The notes beneath the pieces are model-generated. The model did not search any database, was not told the origin of the DNA, and saw nothing but the letters and a program-made list of their open reading frames with translations. Positions 15,768-45,534 of a stretch of DNA of 64,000 bases are shown piece by piece. The stretch's first letter is position 1. Each line of letters opens with the position of its first letter. A program made the translations under genes and the position numbers. The stretch comes from Cyanobium sp. Morenito 9A2. Lineage in GTDB: Bacteria; Cyanobacteriota; Cyanobacteriia; PCC-6307; Cyanobiaceae. Location: the NCBI RefSeq assembly GCF_024345575.1, contig NZ_JAGQBJ010000009.1:1-64000 (forward strand). Reading direction: 5' to 3'.

Positions 15768-16478
15768 ATGGACCTCTCCAAGCCCAGCACCACCGCCAAC
15801 CTCGAAGCCGCCTTCGGCGGTGAGAGCATGGCCAACCGCAAATACCTCTTCTTCGCCGATGTGGCCAAGCAGCTCGGCAACTCCGAGCTGGCCAAACTCT
15901 TCCGCGACACCGCCGCCCAGGAAACCGAGCACGCCTTCGCCCACTTCCGCCTGCTCCACCCCGAGCTCGTCGTGGCCGATCCCGCCACCCTGAGCGATGC
16001 CGAAAAGCAGGCGGTGCTCAGCCGCTGCCTGGAGCTGGCGATCGAAGGCGAAACCTATGAGTACACAACGATGTACCCGGAGTTCGCCGATCAGGCCCGC
16101 GCCGATCGCGATGGCGGCGCTGAAGCCGAGTTCAACGAGCAGATCGCTGAATCCACGGAGCACGCCGGCCTCTTCCGGAAGGCCGCCAGCAACTTCGGCC
16201 TGCTCACCCCCATCGAGCACCACCACGCCGACCGCTACAGCGTCGCCCTCGAAGCGCTCCAGGGCCTCGGCACCGCCGGCGAAACCGAACCCGTGGCCGG
16301 CAAGTGGATCTGCAAGGTCTGCTCGGTGATCTACGACCCAGAACTGGGCGACCCCGATTCCGGCCTCGCCGCCGGCACCCCGTTCGAGGCCATTCCCGAC
16401 GACTGGAGCTGCCCGCTCTGCGGCACCCGCAAGGCCAACTTCATCCCCTACCGGGAGCCTGAGTTGGTGGCGGCCTGA
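15768..16478 (+). CDS. Rubrerythrin with C-terminal rubredoxin domain
   Basis: 236 residues. The ferritin-like diiron domain (1-170) shows ESMANRKY, the [11 protein letters not shown] helix and [14 protein letters not shown] and ESTEHAGLF, supplying the glutamate and histidine ligands. The C-terminal rubredoxin domain has CKVC and CPLCG around an FeS4 site (about residues 185-230). Rubrerythrins reduce hydrogen peroxide using electrons from NAD(P)H reductases. Proximity to flv3-flv1 and the HxlR redox module suggests an oxidative-stress neighbourhood. Its 3' end overlaps the convergent K+ channel gene by 31 bases. Confidence 0.93.
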
Positions 16479-17407
16479 TCGGCGCAGGCGCTGCAGGGCA
16501 CCGTCTCATTGAAGCGGCTGAAGTCAAGCACCCGACTGTCCTCGTCGTCCACGACGATGTCGGCAAAGCGGGCATTCAGCCTCAGGTCGGCGGGCCGGTA
16601 GGTCCAGCGGGCGTGGACGGGACTCTGCAGGGTCTCGTCCACCCCCTGGAAGGCCGCGAGCAGCTCCCCGTGGCGGGCGGCCAGGCTTTCCGCAGTGTGT
16701 CCCTGGAGCGGACTTTGATCATCGATCGTGTGCATCAGCGTCCACATCAGCTGGAAGTGAATCGACTGCTCCCGCAGCAGGGTCAGGGGCACCAGGCGCC
16801 GCAGCCTGAACCCCTCGCTGCTGAGCTCCTCCAGGGCCAGGTAGAGCCGCATGCGCCCATCGAGGATGCCGTTGCGGCGCACGTTGGCGATCCGGAAGGT
16901 GAGCGTGGGCACGCCGTTCCAGGGCTCGACCGTGGCCACGGTGCTGAACAGGATGCGCGCCCGGCTGCGAGAAAACCGGGCGAAGGCCAGGCCCGTGGTC
17001 ACCGCGATGAAGATCAGTCCCCCCAAAGCCTCGAGGGTCACCACCAGATTCACCCAGAGGCTGGCGGGATGGAGAACGCCGTAGCCGATCGAACCCAGGG
17101 TCTGGACGCTGAAGAAGAAGGCCTCGGCGAACCCGGCCGGGCCTCCACCGGGAACCCCGCCGATGCCGCCCGGATCGAGCAGAAAGAGCAGGGCGAAGAC
17201 GAGATTGAGGACCAGATAACTGGCCGCGATCAGCCCCACGAAGCCCGGCCAGGGGATGGCCAGCATCAAGTGGTAGGGCTCGCGCCAGTGGTGGCGCCAG
17301 TCATCGAGCTTCTCGGCCCGAAACACCCCGTCCTGCTTGCGCAGCCGCAGGGACCGCAGCACGGGGGCCCTGGGAGTGGACCGGCGCTTCCCCAGGAACC
17401 GGACCAT
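16448..17407 (-). CDS. Inward-rectifier-type (KirBac-like) potassium channel
   Basis: 319 residues. Two transmembrane helices (about 52-78 and 116-142) flank a pore loop with filter TLGSIGYG at residues 103-110. A C-terminal immunoglobulin-like cytoplasmic domain (about 150-300) contains [22 protein letters not shown] and the [15 protein letters not shown] segment, both typical of Kir channels. The N-terminal amphipathic slide helix precedes TM1. The filter has Ser-Ile-Gly-Tyr-Gly instead of the usual Thr-Ile-Gly-Tyr-Gly. The start overlaps the stop of the upstream HxlR regulator gene by one base (TGATG on the minus strand), so the two are probably translated together. Confidence 0.9.
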
Positions 17408-17775
17408 CAGCGCTGGGAGGTTGCTGGCTTGGGCCGCCCGGCCTGGAGGCCATCGGCCCCCCAGGCATGGAGGCTCCGGAGCACGGGCACCAGATCCAGG
17501 CCCCGCGGCGAAAGCCTGTACTCCACCCGGGGCGGCACTTCGGGGTAGATGGTGCGCTCCAGGACACCATCGGCCTCCAGTTCCCTGAGCTGTTGGGTGA
17601 GCACCTTCGCGCTCACCCCTGAAAGGGCGCGGCTGAGATCGGAGAAGCGCCGCATCCCGATCAGCAATTCCCGCAGGATCGCCAACTTCCAGCGCCCCTG
17701 CATCACCCGCAGGGCCAGCTCGGCGGGGCACTCCCCCTCGCCGTTCCGGGCCACGAACTCGTTGGGGAGCCCCAT
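17407..17775 (-). CDS. HxlR-family winged-helix regulator with an N-terminal cysteine
   Basis: 122 residues with the HxlR fold: VMQGRWKLAILRELLIGMRRFSDLSRAL, GVSAKVLTQQLRELEADGVLERTIY, and VEYRLSPRGLDLVPVL. A single cysteine, Cys16 in GEGECPAEL, sits where the redox-sensing thiol of YodB/HypR-type HxlR proteins lies. The start MGLPNEF at 17775 is chosen because the family begins close to this cysteine. It is coupled to the K+ channel gene and divergent from the CDGSH gene across 103 bases, so it likely controls both directions. GTTCGAAC at 17843-17850 in the spacer is a palindrome and possible operator core. Confidence 0.88.
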   Translation of the reverse strand: MGLPNEFVARNGEGECPAELALRVMQGRWKLAILRELLIGMRRFSDLSRALSGVSAKVLTQQLRELEADGVLERTIYPEVPPRVEYRLSPRGLDLVPVLRSLHAWGADGLQAGRPKPATSQR

Positions 17776-33753: not shown

Positions 33754-33868
33754 AGCGCCTCAGCCGGGCGCCGGGCCGCCTGGGGAACCTGAATCCACAC
33801 GGCCATGGGGCGGTGGCGGGGGACGCTCCATCTTTGTAGCGCGCTGGGCGGTTGGAAAGTTGGGGCGT

Positions 33869-34176
33869 GGTGGGTAAAGGAGATCGTCAGGGCCTATGCC
33901 CAGCAGCCCATCCCCCGCGAGGCGCGCGCCCAGCAGGCCCGTCTATACATCCATTCCAGGTTCACCAGCAAGCAGCAGCTCTTCCTGGATTTCGTGCTCC
34001 AGCACTACGTGACGATGGGCGTGCAGGAGCTGGCCCAGGACAAGCTCACGCCCTTGCTGTGCCTCCGCTACCAGAACTCCATTGCCGATGCCGTCGCCGA
34101 TCTGGGCAGACCCAAAGTCATCGGCCAGCTTTTTTCAGGCTTCCAGAACTATCTCTATGAGGCCACCGCCCGATGA
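33869..34176 (+). pseudogene. C-terminal remnant of type I restriction endonuclease HsdR
   Basis: The frame ends in FTSKQQLFLDFVLQHYVTMG, VQELAQDKLTPLLCLRYQNS and IADAVADLGRPKVIGQLFSG, which reads like the EcoEI-R C-terminal domain of type I restriction subunits (normally followed by FQKYLY; here FQNYLYEA). Only about 100 of roughly 800-1000 residues remain; no motor or nuclease domain exists upstream, where the cbpA gene starts in the other direction. It should be inactive. Matching remnants of hsdM and hsdS occur at 45.6-46.2 kb. Confidence 0.75.
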
Positions 34177-34265
34177 GGGCTGCTTCGCCAACACCCGGCA
34201 CCGCAAGCAGATCATGCCGACTAGCCCATGCGCCCGTAGTCCCAGAGCACCGGAGAAAGTCGATA

Positions 34266-34742
34266 GTGGCGAAGAACACGATCTGCCTGTGGTGCGACGG
34301 CACAGTGCTCGAGGCGGCAACGTTCTACACCTCAACGTTCCCGGATAGCGAGCTGGGCGCCATCTTCCATGCCCCAAGCGATTATCCCTCCGGGCGGCAG
34401 GGCGATGTGCTGACCGTGTTGTTCACGGTCTCCTGAATCCCTTGCCTGGGCCTCAATGGCGGCTCCGCCTTCCGCCCCAGCGAAGCCTTCTCCTTCCAGA
34501 TCGCCACCGACAACCAGGAGGAAACGGATCGTCTCTGGCACACCATCACGGCGAATGGAGGCCAGGAGAGTGCCTGTGGCTGGTGCAAAGACCGCTGGGG
34601 AGTGTCGTGGTAGATCACCCCACGGGTGCTCACAGCGGCCCTGGCGCATCCTGACCCCAGCGCTGCCCAGCGTGCCTTTGCGGAGATGATGGGGATGACG
34701 AAGATCAACATCGCCACGATCGAAGCCGCCCTCCAGAAATGA
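34266..34742 (+). pseudogene. PhnB-like VOC-fold protein with two nonsense codons
   Basis: The frame from GTG at 34266 reads AKNTICLWCDGTVLEAATFY, then TGA at 34434-34436, then IPCLGLNGGSAFRPSEAFSF, TAG at 34611-34613 and ITPRVLTAALAHPDPSAAQR, ending at 34742. Without the stops it is a full-length 158-codon PhnB/3-demethylubiquinone methyltransferase-like (VOC superfamily) protein. The second stop lies where the family has glutamine (SWQITP), consistent with CAG to TAG; the first replaces a glycine-type position. There is no frameshift. DinB follows 45 bases downstream. Confidence 0.8.
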
Positions 34743-35883: not shown

Positions 35884-36584
35884 ATGCCAAAGCCGAGCCT
35901 GCTCCATTCCCTGCGCACCTCGTTCGACGCCTCGATCGGGGATGTGTTCTTCGGGATGGAGGACGGCACCGTGTCGATCTTCGGCCTGGTGGCCGGGGTG
36001 GCGCTCACGGCCAGCTCCGGCAAGAGCGTGCTGATCGCGGGTGCTTCCGGGACCGTGGCCGCCGCCGTCTCGATGCTGGCAGGGGTGTTCCTCGACCTGC
36101 CGTCGGAGCAGGACAAGGAGCGGGTGAACACCCGCCGCCGTCTGGCGGCGGTGCGGGCCGATCCCACGGGTGAGATCGCGGCGCTGATGGGGTGCCTGGG
36201 CCGCACGGGCCTGCAGCCGGCCACCCTGGCGGCGATTGAGAGCGACCTGCCGGAAGGCCGGCGACGCTGCCGGACCTGGAGCGCCGGGCGGCGGTGCCCT
36301 CTGAATCCAGTCGCCAGCAGCCCTGGGCCCATGCGCTCTGGATGCTCGTGTCGGATCTGTTCGCGGGGCTGACGCCGGTGCTGGCCTTCGCCCTGTTGCC
36401 CCGGGAGCAGGCCCGGCCAGTGTCGTTGCTGATGACCCTGGCGCTGCTGGTGCTGCTGGGCTACGGCCGCGCCCGGATCGGGGAGCGCGCCCTGCTGACC
36501 ACGGTGCTGACCACGGTGTCGATCGCCGGCTGTGCCGCCCTGGCAGGGGTGGCGATCGGCCTCTGGCGGAACCGGATCGGCTGA
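35884..36584 (+). pseudogene. VIT1/CCC1-family transporter with a frameshift
   Basis: The first frame reads SLRTSFDASIGDVFFGMEDG and TVSIFGLVAGVALTASSGKS, the N-terminal signature of the VIT1/CCC1 iron/manganese transporter family. Near 36256 the coding shifts by one base (a missing C in GGCCGG would restore it) into the frame reading PATLPDLERRAAVPSESSRQ and then three more transmembrane helices to 36584. Both halves are otherwise well conserved. The product as written would lack the last helices. A sequencing error is possible. Confidence 0.75.
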
Positions 36585-36613
36585 GGGGGCATGAGGGCGC
36601 GCAGGCCCCCCGC

Positions 36614-38885
36614 TCAGCCGGGGCCCCGGGCCCGCAACGCCGACACATCCCAGGCGCGGTCCTGGTCGGTAGGCAGCTCCTGCAGGTCGGATTGCAGCAG
36701 CTGCTCGAGATCCCGTTGCAGCTGGCGGGAGCGGGCGATCCGGGCGCTCTCGTCGTCCTCGAAGGCGGCCCCCTCCTGGAGGCCAGTTCATCGTGGTGGC
36801 GGAAGGTCTGGGCGAGGCGGTGGGCGCGGTGGGCACGCACCCCCAGCAGCCGCAGGGCATCGACGCCGACTTCGAGGGCGGAGCCGAAGGTTTCCCGCCG
36901 CACCACGGCCACCCCCTGGCGGATCAGGGCGTAGGCATGGCGGCGGTCGCTGGCGCGGGCGAGGATCTGCAACGGCGGGAAATGCTTGCGGGCCAGCGCC
37001 ACGATCTCCAGGGCCTTGGCGGGGTCATCGATCGCCACCACCAGCAGCCGGGCCCGCTCGGCGCCGGCGGCATGGAGCAGATCAAGGCGGGAGGCGTCGC
37101 CTAGAACACCGTTAAGCCGAAGTGCCGCAGCAGATCGATCTGGGTGGGGCTGTGGTCGAGCACGGTGAGGCGGCAGCGGTTGGCGAGCAGCAGCCGCCCG
37201 ACGATCTGCCCGAAGCGCCCGAAGCCGGCGATGATCACCTGGGTGTCGCCGTTGTCGATCGAATCGGGCTCCCGCTGGGGTGCCCGGGCCAGCAGGAGAG
37301 GCTGAATCCAGCGTTCGTGGGCCATCAGCATCAGTGGCGTGACCACCATCGAGAGCGCCACCACCAGCAGCGCCGAAAGCTCCTGCGGCAACACCTTCGA
37401 TGTGGTGGCGAAGGAGAACAGCACGAAGCAGAACTCTCCCCCCTGGGCCAGGGCCAGGGCGAACAGCAGGTTGTCGCCGCTGCCCAAGCGGAACACCCGC
37501 CCCAGGGCCAGCAGCACCAGGAACTTCACCAGGGCCAGGCCCAGCACCAGGGCGAGCACCAGCACCGGACTGCGCTGCAGCAGCTGGAAATCGATCGAGG
37601 CCCCCACGGTGAGGAAGAACAGCCCCAGCAGCAGCCCCTTGAAGGGGGCGATATCACCCTTGAGCTCGTGGCGGTATTCGTTGTCGGCCAGCACCACCCC
37701 GGCCACGAAGGTGCCGAGGGCCGGGGACAGGCCCACCTGTTGCATCGCCAGGGCAATGCCGATCACCAGCAACAGGGCCGTGGCCGTGAACACCTCCCGC
37801 AGCTTCGTGGCGGCGATCACCCGGAACACCGGGCGCATCAGGAAGCGCCCGCCCACGATCATCGCCAGCACGATCCCGATCACCTGCGGCGCCTGCTGCA
37901 GCGGCGCACCTGCCGCAGGCGCATGGGAGCCTGTCTGCAGGGCCTCCGGTGCCTTCGAGGCCAGCAACGGCAAGAACGCCAGGATCGGGATCGCGGCGAT
38001 GTCCTGGAACAAGAGCACCGAAAACGACGACTGGCCGGCGTCGGTCTTGATCAGGCCCACCGCCAACGCCACCGGGGGGCTGAGCCCCAGCAGGGCGCCC
38101 ACCAACGCGATCGCCAGGGCCGTGACCAGCACCTGCAGACCGCCCAGCCCGAGGATCGGCAACCGCAGGCGCCAGAGCAGCGAGGGCTGCAGTTCGAGGC
38201 CCACCAGGAACAGCATCATCACGACGCCGAATTCGGCGAAGTGCATCACGTCCTGGCCTTCGCGGCCGACGACGTGGAGGCCGAAGGGGCCGATCAGCAC
38301 CCCGGCGATCAGATAGCCGAGAACGGAGCCGAGGCCGAGGCGGTTGGAGATCGGCACCACCAGCAGGCTGCGGTAGTCGTCGGCGTGGGGGTCGAGGTCG
38401 GCGGCCTCCCGCAGGCGATGGGTGCCGAAGACCACGAGGGGAGGCAGGTAGTCCATGCCGCAGAGGGCGGCGGTCTGCTGGAAGGGGGCGAGCAGCTCCA
38501 GGATCGAGAAGCGGTTGGCGCCCTGCGGGCAGTAGGCCTCCTTCGGCCCACCCGTCGTGATCGCACTGAGACACCGCTTGCCGCGCAGGGCGTTGCCCCC
38601 CTCGCCGTAGGCGAAGCCGTGCTCAAGCACCAGGTCCTGCCATCCCTTGAGGATCGCCGGGGAGCTGTACCAGTAGAAGGGGTGCTGGAAGACGATCAGG
38701 TCGTGCCGTCGCAGCAACTCCTGCTCGCGGGCCACGTCGATGTGGAAGCTGGGGTAGTGCTCGTCGAGGTCATGGAGCGTGATCCCCTCCACGCCTTCGA
38801 TCGCCTGCACCAGCCGCCGGTTGACGCGTGAGTTGTGGAACGCCGGATGGGCGAACAACACGAGCACGCGCGCCGGGTCGCCCAT
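36614..38885 (-). pseudogene. KefG/KefF-like reductase fused to a KefB/KefC K+/H+ antiporter, disrupted
   Basis: Residues 1-190 are a flavodoxin-like NAD(P)H quinone reductase of the KefF/KefG type (LVLFAHPAFHNSRVNRRL, FQHPFYWYSSPAILKGWQD). The frame then passes directly into a Kef antiporter (NRLGLGSVLGYLIAGVLIGP) that appears to lack its first helix. A segment of roughly 20 residues normally preceding KT.AGQ.SFSVLLFQD also seems missing. The TrkA-N domain is split by two one-base deletions, near 37103 (after HFGLTVF) and near 36780 (after FRHHDEL); the last part ends at 36614. Together these changes mark a decayed gene. Kef systems export K+ in response to glutathione adducts. Confidence 0.75.
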
Positions 38886-39447
38886 GGATGCGCTCGCTCT
38901 GGGGGTTGCGGGAGTTTTTTTTGGGGGGGGGGTGGACGAGACGGGTTGTTCGCCCGCCACCCCGGACGGCAGGCTCCGGGAGAGTGATGGCAGCAGCGGT
39001 CCGGCCCCATCCATCCCGCTCCCGTCGACGTGCCGCCAGGAAGCAGACGGTCGTTGGATCAACGCGGAGCGGAGCGAGCAGGCATGGTCGCCCGGGGAAG
39101 TTCCCTGGCTGAGGCGAGATCAAAGCCTGAAGTCCTGGACCCTCCCCCTATCCCCGATCGGCTTGCCCCTGGGGCCTCCGAGCCCGAGAGCCGCCGGGTT
39201 TTGCGTGCACTCCCGGCGGGAGCCCATGGCCGTCTGGCCATGCCCAAAAGTAGGGCAGCCCTGCCGTTCACTGGATGGAGCGATAAGCGTCCGCCAGGGT
39301 CCACCTAGAGCCTGCCCAGGCGGGCCCTGTCCGTACAGTGCACAAGAGCGAGGCGGGTGCTACCTGTGCGCTGAAGGGCGCCAGCGGCCACAACGAAAGC
39401 CTGCAGGTGTGCCGACTCGAGCGAAGCTGGGGTTTCAAGAAAAGCCA
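38886..39447. other. gene-free stretch with homopolymer tracts
   Basis: No frame here resembles a protein. Around 38911-38935 there is a run of eight T followed by about eleven G, unusual for the region and prone to slippage. GC content falls after about 39400, where a decayed tautomerase gene begins. No promoter or terminator could be assigned with confidence. Confidence 0.4.
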
Positions 39448-39838
39448 GCGGCACAAATCAAGATCCACGGACTCAATTTGACCCTGGTTCCTGGAATTCA
39501 GCCCTGGTCCGATGCCATCCATGCTTCAGCCATCGAGGCACTTCAACAACCAATCGACAAGCACTTTCATCACTTGATCGGCCTGGGGAGAACCGAATTC
39601 ATCTACCCTTCGGATCGAAGTGAAGATGGCATAAATCATTAAAATCTCTATATTTGCAGGGCGGGCCAGCGAAACCAAAAGGCCCTACTTCGCCGTCTCC
39701 TTGCCAACATCGAAGCGCAGCTCGAACTCAAGGCAGACGATATCGGAATCACACTCTTCAAAACCCAGAAAGACAACTGGAAAATCCAGCGGGCTTCCGG
39801 CGGACGAACTCAGACTCGCCTGCAACATTGAGGTGTGA
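39448..39838 (+). pseudogene. Tautomerase-family gene with three frameshifts and no start codon
   Basis: Pieces of a 4-oxalocrotonate-tautomerase-like protein appear in order but in different frames: AQIKIHGLNLTLVP and LGRTEFIYPSDRSED (39451-39624), then IIKISIFAGRASETKR (39635-39682), then ALLRRLLANIEAQLELKADD and IGITLFKTQKDNW (to about 39783), then GLPADELRLACNIEV ending at 39838. The shifts are +1, -1 and +1. The start is not ATG; the place where M would stand reads GCG. GC content is lower than in the surrounding genes, suggesting transfer followed by decay. Confidence 0.7.
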
Positions 39839-39958
39839 CAGCCCGCAAGCCCATAGAGTTGAACGCTCCGTGCGGCGTTGCGGCTGCTCAGGTGGAAGCG
39901 GCAGGGATCGATGGGCGGCAGGCAGGGCGATCCCCCCCAGGCCGAAGGTCGGCCCCCA

Positions 39959-41395
39959 TCAGGCGCTGGTGTCCGCTTCCTCCCCCTTGATCGTCGCCAC
40001 CGGCGGGCGGCCCGCCAGCACCCGCCGCAGCCTCTCCCGGAACCACTGCAGGGGATGGTTCAGATCGAAGTCCCCGAGCAATCCCCGTTGGCGCAGGCTG
40101 TCCTCATAGCTGCGCAGCACGTCCCTGCGCCGGGCCACCTCAAGGGCCACAGCGTCGGCGAAGTCAGACCGGGAGGCCAGCAGGGCGTGGAAGCTCCCGC
40201 TGGGAACGACGAATAGCGTCGAGTCCTCGGCCGCCACCATCGTGGTGGGGTAAGGCACCTGGAGCAGCAGCGGCAATTCTCCGAAGAACTCACCGGCAAC
40301 GAAGGTGAACAGCTTCCGGCTCACCTGCTCCGTCTCGTGGATGGCATCCACGGCACCATGGAGCACCATGTGGAAGCAGCGACCCTCCTCGCCCTGGCGG
40401 ACCAGCACCGTGCCGGCTCCCACGGAGCGGCGGGCGCCGCTGCCCACCAGCTCCCGCAGGTGGCGCTGGTCCATGGTGCGAAAGCATGGATGTTCAGGCA
40501 AGGCCAGCTTCAGCGGATCCGGATGCGCGGTTGCGCTGGCGTCCCCCTGACCCCGCCGGACAGGCAGCAGCTGGACCTGCTGACGGGATCCGGCCAGTTC
40601 AATCTCCCGCTCCCGCAGCCCCTGTTCGATCGCGTAGTTGAGCGAACTGCGCAGGCTGAGGCTCGCCTGGATCGCCGAGGTCCAGGCCCAGAGCTCGAAG
40701 GCCAGCCCCTGAACCTGGAGTCCGTGGAGCAGCACCTTGGGTGGCGGATCGGCCAGCACCGATGGCTCGGCAAGTGCCGCTTCCAGCAGCACTTCGGTCA
40801 CCGCCAGAGGATCGCTGCCATGGGCCACGGTCACCTCCACATCCACCCGGCCATCCGGGCTCTGGTAGCTGAGGTTCTTGACCGGCGCATTGGTGATGGC
40901 CGAGTTGGGGACCACGATCTCGGCGCCCTGGAAGGTGCGGATCACAGTGGAGCGAATCGAGATCTCGCGGATGTATCCGGTGGTGTTGCCGAACTCGATC
41001 AGGTCCCCCACGTTCAGCTTGCCTTCCATCAGCAAGGTGAGGCCGCTGCTGAGGTTGCGGGTGAGCTCCTGCAACCCAAAGCCCACCCCCACACCCAGGG
41101 CGCCGAAGAGCACGGCGAGGGCGCCGAAGTCGAGCCCCATTCCCTGGGCGACAACCACATAGCCCAGGGCGGCCAGGGCCAGGGACACGAGCGTGGCGAA
41201 CGCCTCGCGCCGCCCCTCCGGCAGGGCGAACCAGCGCAGCACCCGACCCGCCAGCAGGCGCTTCAACAGCCGCGCCGCCAGGCTCACGGCCACCAGCAGC
41301 AGCAGCACCTGCAGAACCCACAGCAGGGAAAAACTCTGGGGGCCCAGGGGAAACAGCGGCACCGTGAAGAATCTCTGGAGGCGCTCGAGAGTCAC
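39959..41395 (-). CDS. MscS-type channel with C-terminal cyclic-nucleotide-binding domain
   Basis: 478 residues. Two or three N-terminal helices lead to the MscS pore helix and beta domain (FGALGVGVGFGLQELTRNLS, MEGKLNVGDLIEFGNTTGYI, VVPNSAITNAPVKNLSY). Residues 310-440 are a cyclic-nucleotide-binding domain (GTVLVRQGEEGRCFHMVLHG, AGEFFGELPLLLQVPYPTTM, resembling the phosphate-binding cassette). This is the bCNG subfamily of MscS, thought to be gated by cAMP or cGMP rather than by tension. The cassette has the FGE core but pro-tyr-pro instead of the usual R-A-A, so nucleotide binding is uncertain. Confidence 0.9.
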   Translation of the reverse strand: MTLERLQRFFTVPLFPLGPQSFSLLWVLQVLLLLVAVSLAARLLKRLLAGRVLRWFALPEGRREAFATLVSLALAALGYVVVAQGMGLDFGALAVLFGALGVGVGFGLQELTRNLSSGLTLLMEGKLNVGDLIEFGNTTGYIREISIRSTVIRTFQGAEIVVPNSAITNAPVKNLSYQSPDGRVDVEVTVAHGSDPLAVTEVLLEAALAEPSVLADPPPKVLLHGLQVQGLAFELWAWTSAIQASLSLRSSLNYAIEQGLREREIELAGSRQQVQLLPVRRGQGDASATAHPDPLKLALPEHPCFRTMDQRHLRELVGSGARRSVGAGTVLVRQGEEGRCFHMVLHGAVDAIHETEQVSRKLFTFVAGEFFGELPLLLQVPYPTTMVAAEDSTLFVVPSGSFHALLASRSDFADAVALEVARRRDVLRSYEDSLRQRGLLGDFDLNHPLQWFRERLRRVLAGRPPVATIKGEEADTSA

Positions 41396-41512
41396 CCTGG
41401 GGCTCCAAAGACAACAGACGTTCTAGCCAGTGGGAAGCCGTCGAGACCGCCGCTCGAATGAACCCGGAACCCGGCCCCTCAGCTCCCGTCCAGGATCGGT
41501 TGCGCGGCGGCC

Positions 41513-41851
41513 CTAACGCTCCCGGTGGGACTGGCCCCAGGCGCAGAGGGTCTGGAGCACGGGAATCAGGCTGCGGCCGTAGGCACTGAAGCCATAGCTC
41601 ACCTGCGGCGGCCGGGTCGGCACCTCCTCCCGCTCCACCAAGCCATCGCGCACCAGGTCGCGCAGATGCTGGCTCAGCACCTTGTCGCTGATCTCCGGGA
41701 TCCCCCGGCGCAGGTCGCCGTAGCGCTGGGGACCCTGTCCCAACAGCCAGAGGATCGGCACGGTCCACTTCCCCACCAGCACCTTGAGGGCGGCGCGCAC
41801 GAAGAGGGTTCCTTCGATGGGATCCGCGCCCCTGGGCTGGATGGCGTTCAT
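41513..41851 (-). CDS. HxlR-family winged-helix regulator (second copy)
   Basis: 112 residues. VLVGKWTVPILWLLGQGPQR, YGDLRRGIPEISDKVLSQHL and RDLVRDGLVEREE follow the HxlR pattern. Unlike the copy at 17.4 kb it has no N-terminal cysteine; its only cysteine is near the C-terminus (LQTLCAWGQ). It is divergent from the SDR gene across 114 bases and presumably controls it. The start at 41851 (MNAIQPRGAD) is preferred to 41980 for family length. Confidence 0.87.
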   Translation of the reverse strand: MNAIQPRGADPIEGTLFVRAALKVLVGKWTVPILWLLGQGPQRYGDLRRGIPEISDKVLSQHLRDLVRDGLVEREEVPTRPPQVSYGFSAYGRSLIPVLQTLCAWGQSHRER

Positions 41852-41965
41852 GGGAGCTGAGGCGTCCTGCTCTGGAACGCACCTGACGGTAAGTTCTTCC
41901 CCTCCAAGGCGGATCGCCATAGGTTGCCCATCGCTTTCCCTCGCTTCTCGGCGACCACCCCGACC

Positions 41966-42700
41966 ATGACGCGACTGCAAGGCAAGGTGGCCCTGGTCAG
42001 CGGCGGATCCCGCGGCATCGGCCGGGCCATCGCCGAGCGGCTCGGCCGTGATGGCGCCGACGTGGCCCTCACCTACGCCGGCAACCGCGACAAGGCGGAA
42101 GCCGTGGCGGCCACGATCCGCGCCGGAGGGGTGCGGGCCCTGGCCCTGGCCTCCGATCTGCGAGAAGTGAGCCAGACCCGGGCCCTGTTCGCCGCCGTGC
42201 TGGAGCAGTTCGGCCGCCTCGACATCGTCGTCAACAACGCCGGGATCTCAGTGTTCAAACCCACCACCGACATCGACGAAGCGGACTACGACCGGGTCAT
42301 GGACACCAATGCCCGCGGCACCTTCTTCGCCCTCCAGGAAGCGGCCCGCCACGTGGCCGACGGGGGCCGGATCATCAACCTGGCCAGCGGCGCCACCCGC
42401 CAGGCCCTGGCAGCCGCGGGGGTGTATGCCGCCAGCAAGGCGGCGGTGGAGCAGTTCGGCATGGCCCTGGCCAAAGAACTCGGACCCCGCGGCATCACGG
42501 TCAACCAGATCGGCCCCGGGGTCACCGACACCGACGGTCTGATCATGCCGGCCGAGGCCCTGAAGCATCTGATCGCCTCCACGCCCCTGGGTCGCCTCGG
42601 CCAGCCCGCCGATCTGGCGGACGTGGTGGCCTTCCTGGCCTCCGATGACGCCCGCTGGGTGAACGGCCAGACGCTCCAGGTGAATGGCGGCATCCTCTGA
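41966..42700 (+). CDS. Short-chain dehydrogenase/reductase
   Basis: 244 residues of a classical SDR: cofactor motif SGGSRGIGRAIAERL, NNAG in VVNNAGISVF, and the catalytic YxxxK in YAASKAAVEQF with an upstream serine in NLASGATR. NADP preference is suggested by the residue after the second strand, but not certain. SDRs of this type reduce ketones or quinone-like substrates. It is divergent from HxlR copy 2 and closely followed by an ABM monooxygenase gene. Start at 41966 matches family length. Confidence 0.92.
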   Translation: MTRLQGKVALVSGGSRGIGRAIAERLGRDGADVALTYAGNRDKAEAVAATIRAGGVRALALASDLREVSQTRALFAAVLEQFGRLDIVVNNAGISVFKPTTDIDEADYDRVMDTNARGTFFALQEAARHVADGGRIINLASGATRQALAAAGVYAASKAAVEQFGMALAKELGPRGITVNQIGPGVTDTDGLIMPAEALKHLIASTPLGRLGQPADLADVVAFLASDDARWVNGQTLQVNGGIL

Positions 42701-42722
42701 ATCCACCCCCAGTAACCCCACC

Positions 42723-43163
42723 ATGGGCGAGTCTCCTGCCAGCATCGACAACCGCTTCCCCGTCAACGCGATCCGCGTCGGCGATGGCATCGTGTTGATC
42801 AACGTCTTCCACCTCGACCCGGACCAGGCCGAAGCCTTCGTCGCCACGCAGGTGGGAGAGTACAAGCGTTTGCAAGGCGTGTTCCCCGGCAGCCTGAGCG
42901 CCAACCTGCACCTCAGCCTCGATCGCACCCGGGCCGTCAACTACGCCCACTTCAGCTCGGTTGACACCTACCTGGCGATGCGGGACAGCCCTGCCTTTGC
43001 CGAGCATCTGCTGCGACTCAAGGGGCTGGTGCGCCAGGCGGAGCCCCAGCTCTACAGCGTGATCTACACCCAGGCCGCCGACCAACCGATCTCAGACGAG
43101 CCCCTGCCGCCGCTGGCGGATCCAGCCCAGGTCCCGTCACTCGGCGCCGTCACCCCTCAATAG
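42723..43163 (+). CDS. Antibiotic biosynthesis monooxygenase (ABM) domain protein
   Basis: About 146 residues, with an alternative in-frame ATG at 42684 inside the SDR gene. The ferredoxin-like ABM core is VLINVFHLDPDQAEAFVATQ, then FPGSLSANLHLSLDRTRAVN and YAHFSSVDTYLAMRDSPAF. Members include the quinol monooxygenase YgiN and related cofactor-free oxygenases. The C-terminal tail is proline-rich. It lies 22 bases after SDR and likely belongs to the HxlR-controlled unit. Confidence 0.85.
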   Translation: MGESPASIDNRFPVNAIRVGDGIVLINVFHLDPDQAEAFVATQVGEYKRLQGVFPGSLSANLHLSLDRTRAVNYAHFSSVDTYLAMRDSPAFAEHLLRLKGLVRQAEPQLYSVIYTQAADQPISDEPLPPLADPAQVPSLGAVTPQ

Positions 43164-43247
43164 GACTGGGCTCTTGGCGAGGTCCCCCCAGGGCGACCTC
43201 CCGGCGCCATCGCTCCGCTGTGGAACGATGGTCTCACCGACCCGTTC

Positions 43248-43775
43248 ATGCCAACGATGGGGAGACCAATCACCGGCTACAAGCTGCCGTCAGCCCAACG
43301 ATCCGGCCTGCTTCTGTCCGTCCTCAGCGGTGCTCTCGCGGCTTCCCTGGTGGGTGTCCTGCTGATCAAGGTCCTGCCGGGCGGATCGGGAAGCATCGAT
43401 CAGACCCTGCCCCAGACCGGTCCGCTCGGCAACCTGATCTCCACCATCGTGCCGTTGGTCTGGGTAGCTCTCTTCTCCGGTCTCGGCGCCGCCTTCTGGC
43501 TGGTCAGCGGCGGGGGCAACGATCCGCGCCGGGCGAGATGGGCCGTGCTCGGGCTCGTCGGCCTGTGCATGGTCTACCCGGTGCTCGCCAGTGGGGTGAG
43601 TCAGCTGAGCATCGCGATCGTGGGCAATGGGGTGACCATCGCTTGTGCGTTGCTGACCGCCAGGCTCTGCTGGCCCGTTTCACGGCTGGCGTCCCTGTTC
43701 CCCAGCCTTGTTGCGCTCTGGGTGGGCCTGGCCACCGCTGGCCTCGTGGCCTTGATGCTGGGCCTGCCGTACTGA
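43248..43775 (+). CDS. TspO/MBR family membrane protein (tentative)
   Basis: 175 residues with five hydrophobic helices. The C-terminal helices, ALLTARLCWPVSRLASLFPS and LVALWVGLATAGLVALMLGL, match the pattern ATIRAFWRVDRLA...LWVAFATALN of TspO proteins, and the third helix follows a P-x-V-W-V element. The order of helices fits TspO, although the tryptophan content is low. TspO binds tetrapyrroles and is a stress regulator. It is 84 bases from the ABM gene. Confidence 0.6.
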   Translation: MPTMGRPITGYKLPSAQRSGLLLSVLSGALAASLVGVLLIKVLPGGSGSIDQTLPQTGPLGNLISTIVPLVWVALFSGLGAAFWLVSGGGNDPRRARWAVLGLVGLCMVYPVLASGVSQLSIAIVGNGVTIACALLTARLCWPVSRLASLFPSLVALWVGLATAGLVALMLGLPY

Positions 43776-44013
43776 AGGGCGCACAACCTCTGCGAGAGGA
43801 GACGCAGCCAGGGCCATCGCGGAACAAGGCGCGTTTGGAGACGCTTGCATGCGTCGGACCCGGCAGCCCTTGGGGCAAGGAGAGGCAGGCGGCCGTTGCA
43901 GCATCTTGATGGAGATCGCTGCACGGCGGAATCGGATTCTGAGCGCGTTCCTCCCCCGAGGACAGGATCAGCACCATGAGTAGCCTGTAAACGACAACTC
44001 GTGTCGGCTGTTG

Positions 44014-44406
44014 ATGAAGCTCGGTTACACGATTCTGTATGTCGCCGATGTTGTCGCCTCCCTAGATTTCTACGGTCGGGCCTTTGGCCTTAACCAGCGC
44101 TTCCTCCATGAATCCGGGTCCTATGGGGAGCTGGAGACGGGGGAAACCACCCTCGCCTTTGCGCACCATGATCTGGGCGAGGCGAACGTTCCCGGAGGTC
44201 TCGTGCGCGCCGATGCATCGGCCCGGCCCCTGGGCATGGAAATCGGCCTGGTCACCGCTGACGTGCCTGCAGCCCACGGGCGGGCGCTGGCGGCAGGAGC
44301 CACGGAACTGTGCGCGCCGGTGAGCAAACCCTGGGGCCAGATCGTCTCCTATGTGCGCGCCCCCGATGGCTGCCTGATCGAACTCTGCACCCCGGTCGAG
44401 GCGTGA
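44014..44406 (+). CDS. Glyoxalase/VOC superfamily protein
   Basis: 130 residues from ATG 44014 (a TTG lies three bases upstream). Paired beta-alpha-beta modules are visible: MKLGYTILYVADVVASLDFY, then LETGETTLAFAHHDL, EIGLVTADVPAAHGRAL, and the C-terminal GQIVSYVRAPDGCLIELCTP with the typical glutamate ligand. It is related to bleomycin-resistance and glyoxalase I proteins. Substrate unknown. It is flanked by about 235 gene-free bases upstream and more than 600 downstream. Confidence 0.9.
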   Translation: MKLGYTILYVADVVASLDFYGRAFGLNQRFLHESGSYGELETGETTLAFAHHDLGEANVPGGLVRADASARPLGMEIGLVTADVPAAHGRALAAGATELCAPVSKPWGQIVSYVRAPDGCLIELCTPVEA

Positions 44407-45042
44407 TGGTCACGGGCAGGGAGCCACGCTCCGGCCCTGAACCCAACCAACCGACAGGACCAACGGGAACGCAGGAACCTCGCGAGCGTTCGATGCCTGT
44501 GGGACCACATCCACCCGTCAGATGGCTCAGCGGCAAGGTCAACGTCACCGTCGACAGATCATCGGACGATGGGACCCCACACGGCTCCAGGTCGTGGGGC
44601 TCGCCTCTCCTCAGCACCTGCCGCAGCCAACCCAGCGGGCTTGGAATGCCATCGCTTCGTTGGCTCCTAAGCTGCCTGGCAGGAGATCAGCAAGCTCTGC
44701 CACAGCAGGAAGACTGGCCTGGCCATGGAGCGCGGGGTGCATCCTTTGCCACCCCACCGCCCCCAGCGGCAACCCGATACCCGCCCCTGCGGCCCAACCC
44801 GGCGCCCCACGCCGAATTCGAGTCCAAGTTCCTCGCGGTGTCCGTTCCCTCTGTCACGACGTTCCCCGGCGTTGTCTCGGTCAGCGTGGGCCGCAGGGTT
44901 GGCCGGGGTGAATTGGAATCGGGCTGTCATTCCCCAGGGCATGGAACCGTATGTCAGTGAATGCTGGGTGCATCACTACGAGACGTTGGGGGGAGGGTCT
45001 TGCTGATGCCCCCGTTCCTGGCCCAAGGCGTTCACAATAACG
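44407..45042. other. gene-free stretch
   Basis: Several open frames exist on both strands but none has a domain, signal peptide or conserved-looking segment that I can recognise. The composition is GC-rich without a hairpin-plus-T-run terminator. It may be the remains of a gene too decayed to identify. Confidence 0.35.
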
Positions 45043-45534
45043 ATGAAACGAACCCTTCCCACCCTCGCCGCCTGCCTGGTGCTGGCGGCGCTACCCACCG
45101 GGATCGCGGCGGCGCGTGATCCCGTGGTGGCCCTACGCAGCGGCAGCAGCTTCGGCCATTGCGTGGGCTACTGCGACGAGGAACTGGAGCTGGTGGGAAC
45201 CCGCGGGCGCTATGAGCGCCGGGCCTGGCGCGCTCCCACCGGCACAACGCTGGCACCGCAAATCCTGCGCACCAGCGTTCCCCAGCAGACCTGGCTGAAG
45301 CTCGTTCGCCTGGCGGACAACCTTCAACTCACAAAACCCCAGGTCGTGATCGGCTGCCCCGATTGCGACGATGGAGGCTCGGAATGGATCGAACTGGTCC
45401 GCCAGAGCGGGGCCAAACGGCGCATCGTGTTCGAGTATCACCGCTACCCCGCAAACGCTGAGGCATTGGGCCCGCAGCTCGCCGCCCTGCGGGAGACGCT
45501 GGCCAAAGCAAGCGCCGCCCGCGGTGATCGCTGA
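45043..45534 (+). CDS. Secreted protein of unknown function
   Basis: 163 residues with a clear signal peptide (LPTLAACLVLAALPTGIAAA, cleavage near residue 24). The mature part contains four cysteines (GHCVGYCDEEL and IGCPDCDDGGSEWIELV), possibly two disulfides, and ends ALGPQLAALRETLAKAS. The FEYHRYPANAEALGPQL region looks like a small conserved domain seen in other secreted bacterial proteins, but I cannot name the family. Confidence 0.65.
   Translation: MKRTLPTLAACLVLAALPTGIAAARDPVVALRSGSSFGHCVGYCDEELELVGTRGRYERRAWRAPTGTTLAPQILRTSVPQQTWLKLVRLADNLQLTKPQVVIGCPDCDDGGSEWIELVRQSGAKRRIVFEYHRYPANAEALGPQLAALRETLAKASAARGDR

Follow-up and report, generated by a model that had tools for sequence, protein, structure and literature searches.

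In Cyanobium sp. Morenito 9A2, the kefG-kefB operon located at 36614-38885 on the minus strand of the window (i.e. the whole stretch of 64,000 nucleotides analysed here) carries five deletions relative to its relatives and, judging from the comparison with homologous loci, is very likely a non-functional operon, that is, an ordinary pseudogene. The single reading frame in which the two genes now stand is best read as a deletion scar, one of the lesions, and not as a new kind of fusion protein, because all 87 homologous loci (the best 80 matches listed plus seven further loci) keep the SSTA motif and, in the 69 of them where KefG was found upstream, it always has an ORF of its own. A sequence-only reading of this DNA had delimited the locus correctly, had recognised a KefG/KefB pair, as borne out here by the Flavodoxin_2 and Na_H_Exchanger domains and by alignment to relatives, and had proposed inactivation, which is indeed the likely outcome; its account of why the operon was lost fared less well.

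The fused reading frame and its lesions

The open frame extends over 37101-39062 on the minus strand, encoding 653 aa from a TTG or 594 codons from the ATG at 38885, and ends at a TAG at 37103-37101. Flavodoxin_2 (residues 6-173) is directly followed by Na_H_Exchanger (residues 174-517), while the match to TrkA_N is weak, covering positions 1-44 of 116 with 21.1 bits for a cut-off of 23.8 bits, a score below cut-off being expected of a fragment. Three parts can be delineated, all on the minus strand. The kefG-like part (38364-38885, ~174 codons) lies in the right order, 5' of the antiporter part, but is truncated, lacking ~37 C-terminal residues and the stop codon compared with the homologous operon of G006 (CAIXBB010000005.1, an uncultured cyanobacterium MAG), and shares its frame with kefB. 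The kefB-like membrane part (37104-38366, up to the start of TrkA_N) lacks ~18 N-terminal residues. The remains of the RCK and C-terminal region (36614-37101) are out of frame and end at a stop codon aligned with that of G006; the RCK/KTN (TrkA_N) domain is not intact, being split over two frames (37238-37098 and 37125-36901) with a TAG. Just upstream of the kefG start, a T8G10 run is found at 38915-38932; the window has just one other 10-base run.

The deletion that joins kefG in frame to kefB, as alignment to G006 and other operons indicates, took away ~160 bp at 38360-38365 (~38363/38362), a junction placed only to within a few bases, and with them the end of kefG including its stop, as well as the kefB start and the N-terminal KefB residues; the loss of the first helix announced by the sequence-only reading thus holds for the start of that helix. 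A second deletion, at 38047-38051 (~38049), removed 57 bp, i.e. 19 residues, in agreement with the segment of roughly 20 pore residues said to be missing, as established by alignment to G006, other operons, KefB proteins and KefC. These residues align with residues 122-140 of the solved KefC and include the SSTA helix break (KefC 125-128), whereas the membrane domain keeps the QD motif (Q155-D156 in KefC numbering). In the KefC study, K+ is coordinated by S125 (backbone) and T127 together with Q155 and D156 (PMC11150392). A third deletion, seen against G006 and KefB proteins and additional to what had been noticed before, took 6 bp from a GTGGCG/GTGGTG run at 37364-37367 (~37366/37365). These three deletions all preserve the frame. 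Alignment with seven other operons reveals the 160- and 57-bp gaps every time, as does alignment with seven KefB proteins for the gaps of 57 and 6 bp. The two remaining lesions are the one-base deletions foreseen in the regulatory domain, one in TrkA_N at 37101-37103 (~37102/37101), which yields the TAG stop, and one in the C-terminal part at 36781-36782, both placed against G006 only. A variable linker 12 bp longer here than in G006 was not counted as a lesion.

Two Gly-Leu codon pairs lie 57 bp apart, and their mispairing is a plausible origin of the 57-bp deletion, though only that; the repeat that these pairs form is exact over 7 bp in G135 and over 8 bp in G042, but over no more than 2-5 bp in the remaining 54 of 56 loci fitting the search pattern (86 loci supplied). 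A search of the literature on slipped-strand deletions returned nothing pertinent.

Homologous operons and known Kef systems

Descent from kefGB is clear, the KefB part being 74% identical to four members of the family and 66-69% identical to G042, G055 and G048, which belong to the same class. In 60 genomes searched, source genome included, 57 gave some match (E 0.001) but close matches were restricted to four others, namely G006, G042, G048 and G055. Out of 400 family genomes, 23 match the KefB of G006 at 1e-60, of which five are orthologue-like (the source genome, G006, G135, G154 and G220) and 18 distant (30-35%), so that kefGB is rare in the family. Within the source genome itself, which comprises 3.10 Mb in 26 contigs, the fused protein has just one further match at a threshold of E 0.001, on contig 21 and 27% identical; a TrkA_N protein is present on contig 24.

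In G006, the end of kefG overlaps the start of kefB by a few bases; among solved structures, its KefB has a match in KefC (E 8e-155) and its KefG in NAD(P)H oxidoreductases and KefF. The 87 homologous loci, composed of the best 80 matches listed plus seven, correspond to 86 distinct ones, L078 and G006 being one record, and are not all proved intact: the KefB frame is short in L157 and L087 at least, and contig ends truncate some loci. The alignment reaches back to KefB residue 10 or earlier in 85 of them, the remaining pair of loci beginning at a contig end, and no kefG-kefB fusion was encountered in the 69 operons with KefG found. The fusion and the missing segments are therefore not normal features of homologues, and the frame-breaking or domain-removing lesions described above are absent from the homologues examined (G006 only for the single-base gaps).

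The glutathione-gated K+/H+ antiporters KefG-KefB and KefF-KefC share with this locus the gene order, the Flavodoxin_2 and Na_H_Exchanger domains and the QD motif. A review places the ancillary gene 5' of the antiporter gene, with an overlap of typically a few bases (PMC10224563), and the intact relatives match this small overlap. In Morenito 9A2, by contrast, a deletion connects the two genes, helix 5 has lost its break and the RCK domain no longer stands in frame. An ancillary subunit and Kef in one chain are otherwise met in the artificial KefC-CTD:KefF fusion (crystal structures 3EYW, 3L9W and 3L9X; PMC2920069), but KefF stands there behind the soluble KefC domain, whereas KefG here precedes a damaged membrane domain. 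A search for literature on a Kef pseudogene in Cyanobium returned none.

Sequence constraint on the remaining protein

The comparisons bearing on relaxed constraint point in both directions. At columns invariant in four other homologues, the Morenito 9A2 copy differs at 23 of 255, against 9-13 of 241-245 for those four. The dN/dS of KefB, with dS being rough in such GC-rich genes, amounts to 0.32-0.38 between the source and four g6 genomes, compared with 0.06-0.16 among those four; for the KefG part, computed without G154, G220 and G048, the values are 0.33-0.36 between the source and two g6 genomes and 0.17 between those two. Against relaxation, chi-square exceeded 3.84 in only 3 of 12 combinations of the relative-rate tests. 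Besides 19 deeply conserved columns that are absent altogether, the remaining protein deviates at only 1 of 103 (KefB) and 1 of 29 (KefG) columns conserved at 95% or more, and 50 of 84 homologues for KefB and 22 of 67 for KefG deviate as much or more. The remaining sequence is thus little eroded, since its deeply conserved columns deviate no more than in many homologues. The decay of kefGB is probably recent.

Neighbouring genes

The contig and contig 4 of G001, the one further genome of the genus compared, are largely collinear. G001 lacks the 8.5-kb block 36587-45069 that contains kefGB and has 64 bp between the flanking genes instead. Around kefGB in four g6 genomes (stretches of 16-19 kb), only kefGB matched and the neighbours did not. 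The block also holds an MscS-cNMP channel, a second HxlR gene (41516-41980), a short-chain dehydrogenase and a glyoxalase-like gene, and several of its members would fit electrophile defence.

Next to this block, three accessory genes on the plus strand are damaged: a VIT-family gene (35884-36584), open in G001 (233 aa), has a single-base deletion near 36255; a PhnB-like gene (3-dmu-9_3-mt, 34248-34739), also open in G001, has two in-frame TAG stops that are substitutions and not indels; and a C-terminal remnant (EcoEI_R_C, 33805-34176) corresponds to a type I restriction HsdR gene of 781 aa in G001. About 10.7 kb of contig 4 of G001 (~73-84 kb) are missing here, comprising a type I restriction system (the 781-aa HsdR and an N-6 methylase) and an AbiTii gene, with the HsdR tail alone left. 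From 45 G001 genes compared, four are disrupted in the source, PhnB and VIT being two of them, while the other two (82390-83403 of the contig and 30349-31065) are uncurated and possibly no more than shadow ORFs; conversely, and likewise without curation, 6 of 45 source ORFs look disrupted in G001. The kefGB operon sits in a stretch of chromosome with decaying accessory genes, an aspect that had escaped the sequence-only reading.

Alternative readings

Some or all of the lesions could be assembly errors concealing an intact kefGB in the living cell, which appears improbable. In favour of such errors, each of the five lesions is a deletion, single bases are missing at three places (36255 in VIT, 36782 and 37102) within 850 bp, a reading by eye of the list covering the 53 kb aligned to G001 picked out no further clear frameshift standing alone in a conserved gene, and the deeply conserved sites are little eroded. 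A local sequence error may account for the single-base gaps. Losses of 160 and 57 bp are nonetheless not base-call errors, the adjoining PhnB-like gene bears stops arising by substitution, and errors are not general because only 4 of the 45 compared genes, PhnB and VIT among them, are disrupted. It is still less credible that the cell produces the fused protein and retains it as a KefG-type reductase tethered to the membrane, K+ transport being lost and half of the Kef system repurposed. While three frame-preserving deletions leave 594 codons open from the ATG and 28 of 29 deeply conserved positions survive in the KefG part, KefG is short by ~37 residues, helices 1 and 5 have lost segments, nothing alike occurs in the 69 operons with KefG found (among the matches listed plus seven) and the KefG-part dN/dS is raised as well. 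Programmed frameshifting at the TAG was set aside by eye, as two uncompensated single-base losses and two larger deletions would remain.

The sequence-only reading further suggested that Kef was lost since a Kir-type channel, paired with an HxlR gene at 16.4-17.7 kb, had taken over K+ efflux. The channel (16451-17416) does carry IRK_C and the HxlR gene (17410-17730) does adjoin it, but the distribution of these genes makes the takeover extremely improbable. Taking two draws of 400 family genomes as one set, Kir homologues (1e-10) occur in 73, i.e. in all five genomes with kefGB (that of G006 being distant, at 27% identity) and in 68 of the 395 others, and most of the 400 have neither Kir nor kefGB; besides, Kir is present at 96% in G001, a genome devoid of kefGB. 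A check of the best Kir loci of 13 genomes, though not of every second Kir locus, found HxlR next to Kir only in the source and in G072, hence in one of 12 other genomes. The HxlR of G072 is 82% identical to the 17410-17730 gene, and G001 has no HxlR beside Kir. The expectation that relatives with intact Kef would lack the HxlR-Kir pair is borne out at the Kir loci checked in 4 of 4 other family genomes with kefGB, yet it does not discriminate because the pair is likewise missing there in 7 of 8 genomes that have no kefGB.

A probably dead kefGB operon in a decaying region

The account favoured is that of a dead kefGB operon. The ancestor would have had a normal kefG-kefB operon with overlapping genes for a quinone-reductase-like ancillary protein, KefG, and a K+/H+ antiporter, KefB. 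In the lineage of the source genome, deletions would then have removed the gene junction together with the start of helix 1, as well as the half of the broken helix 5 predicted to form part of the K+ site, and single bases would have been lost in the regulatory domain. A working K+/H+ antiporter is thereby unlikely to be made, and the product is very probably dead. The one-frame fusion would be a by-product of the joining deletion. Of the proposal that fusion came before inactivation, the joining stands and inactivation is the likely outcome, but the two-step order is unsupported, because the order is unreadable and the joining deletion itself removes the kefB start. We infer a loss that was neutral or nearly so, and the order and age of the lesions are likewise a matter of inference.

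In terms of significance, a tempting "Kef fusion protein" can be removed from consideration and a local cluster of decaying accessory genes is documented in a cyanobacterial genome. This locus also brings one more data point that Kef is dispensable in Cyanobiaceae, where it is rare anyway (5 of 400 genomes, source genome included).
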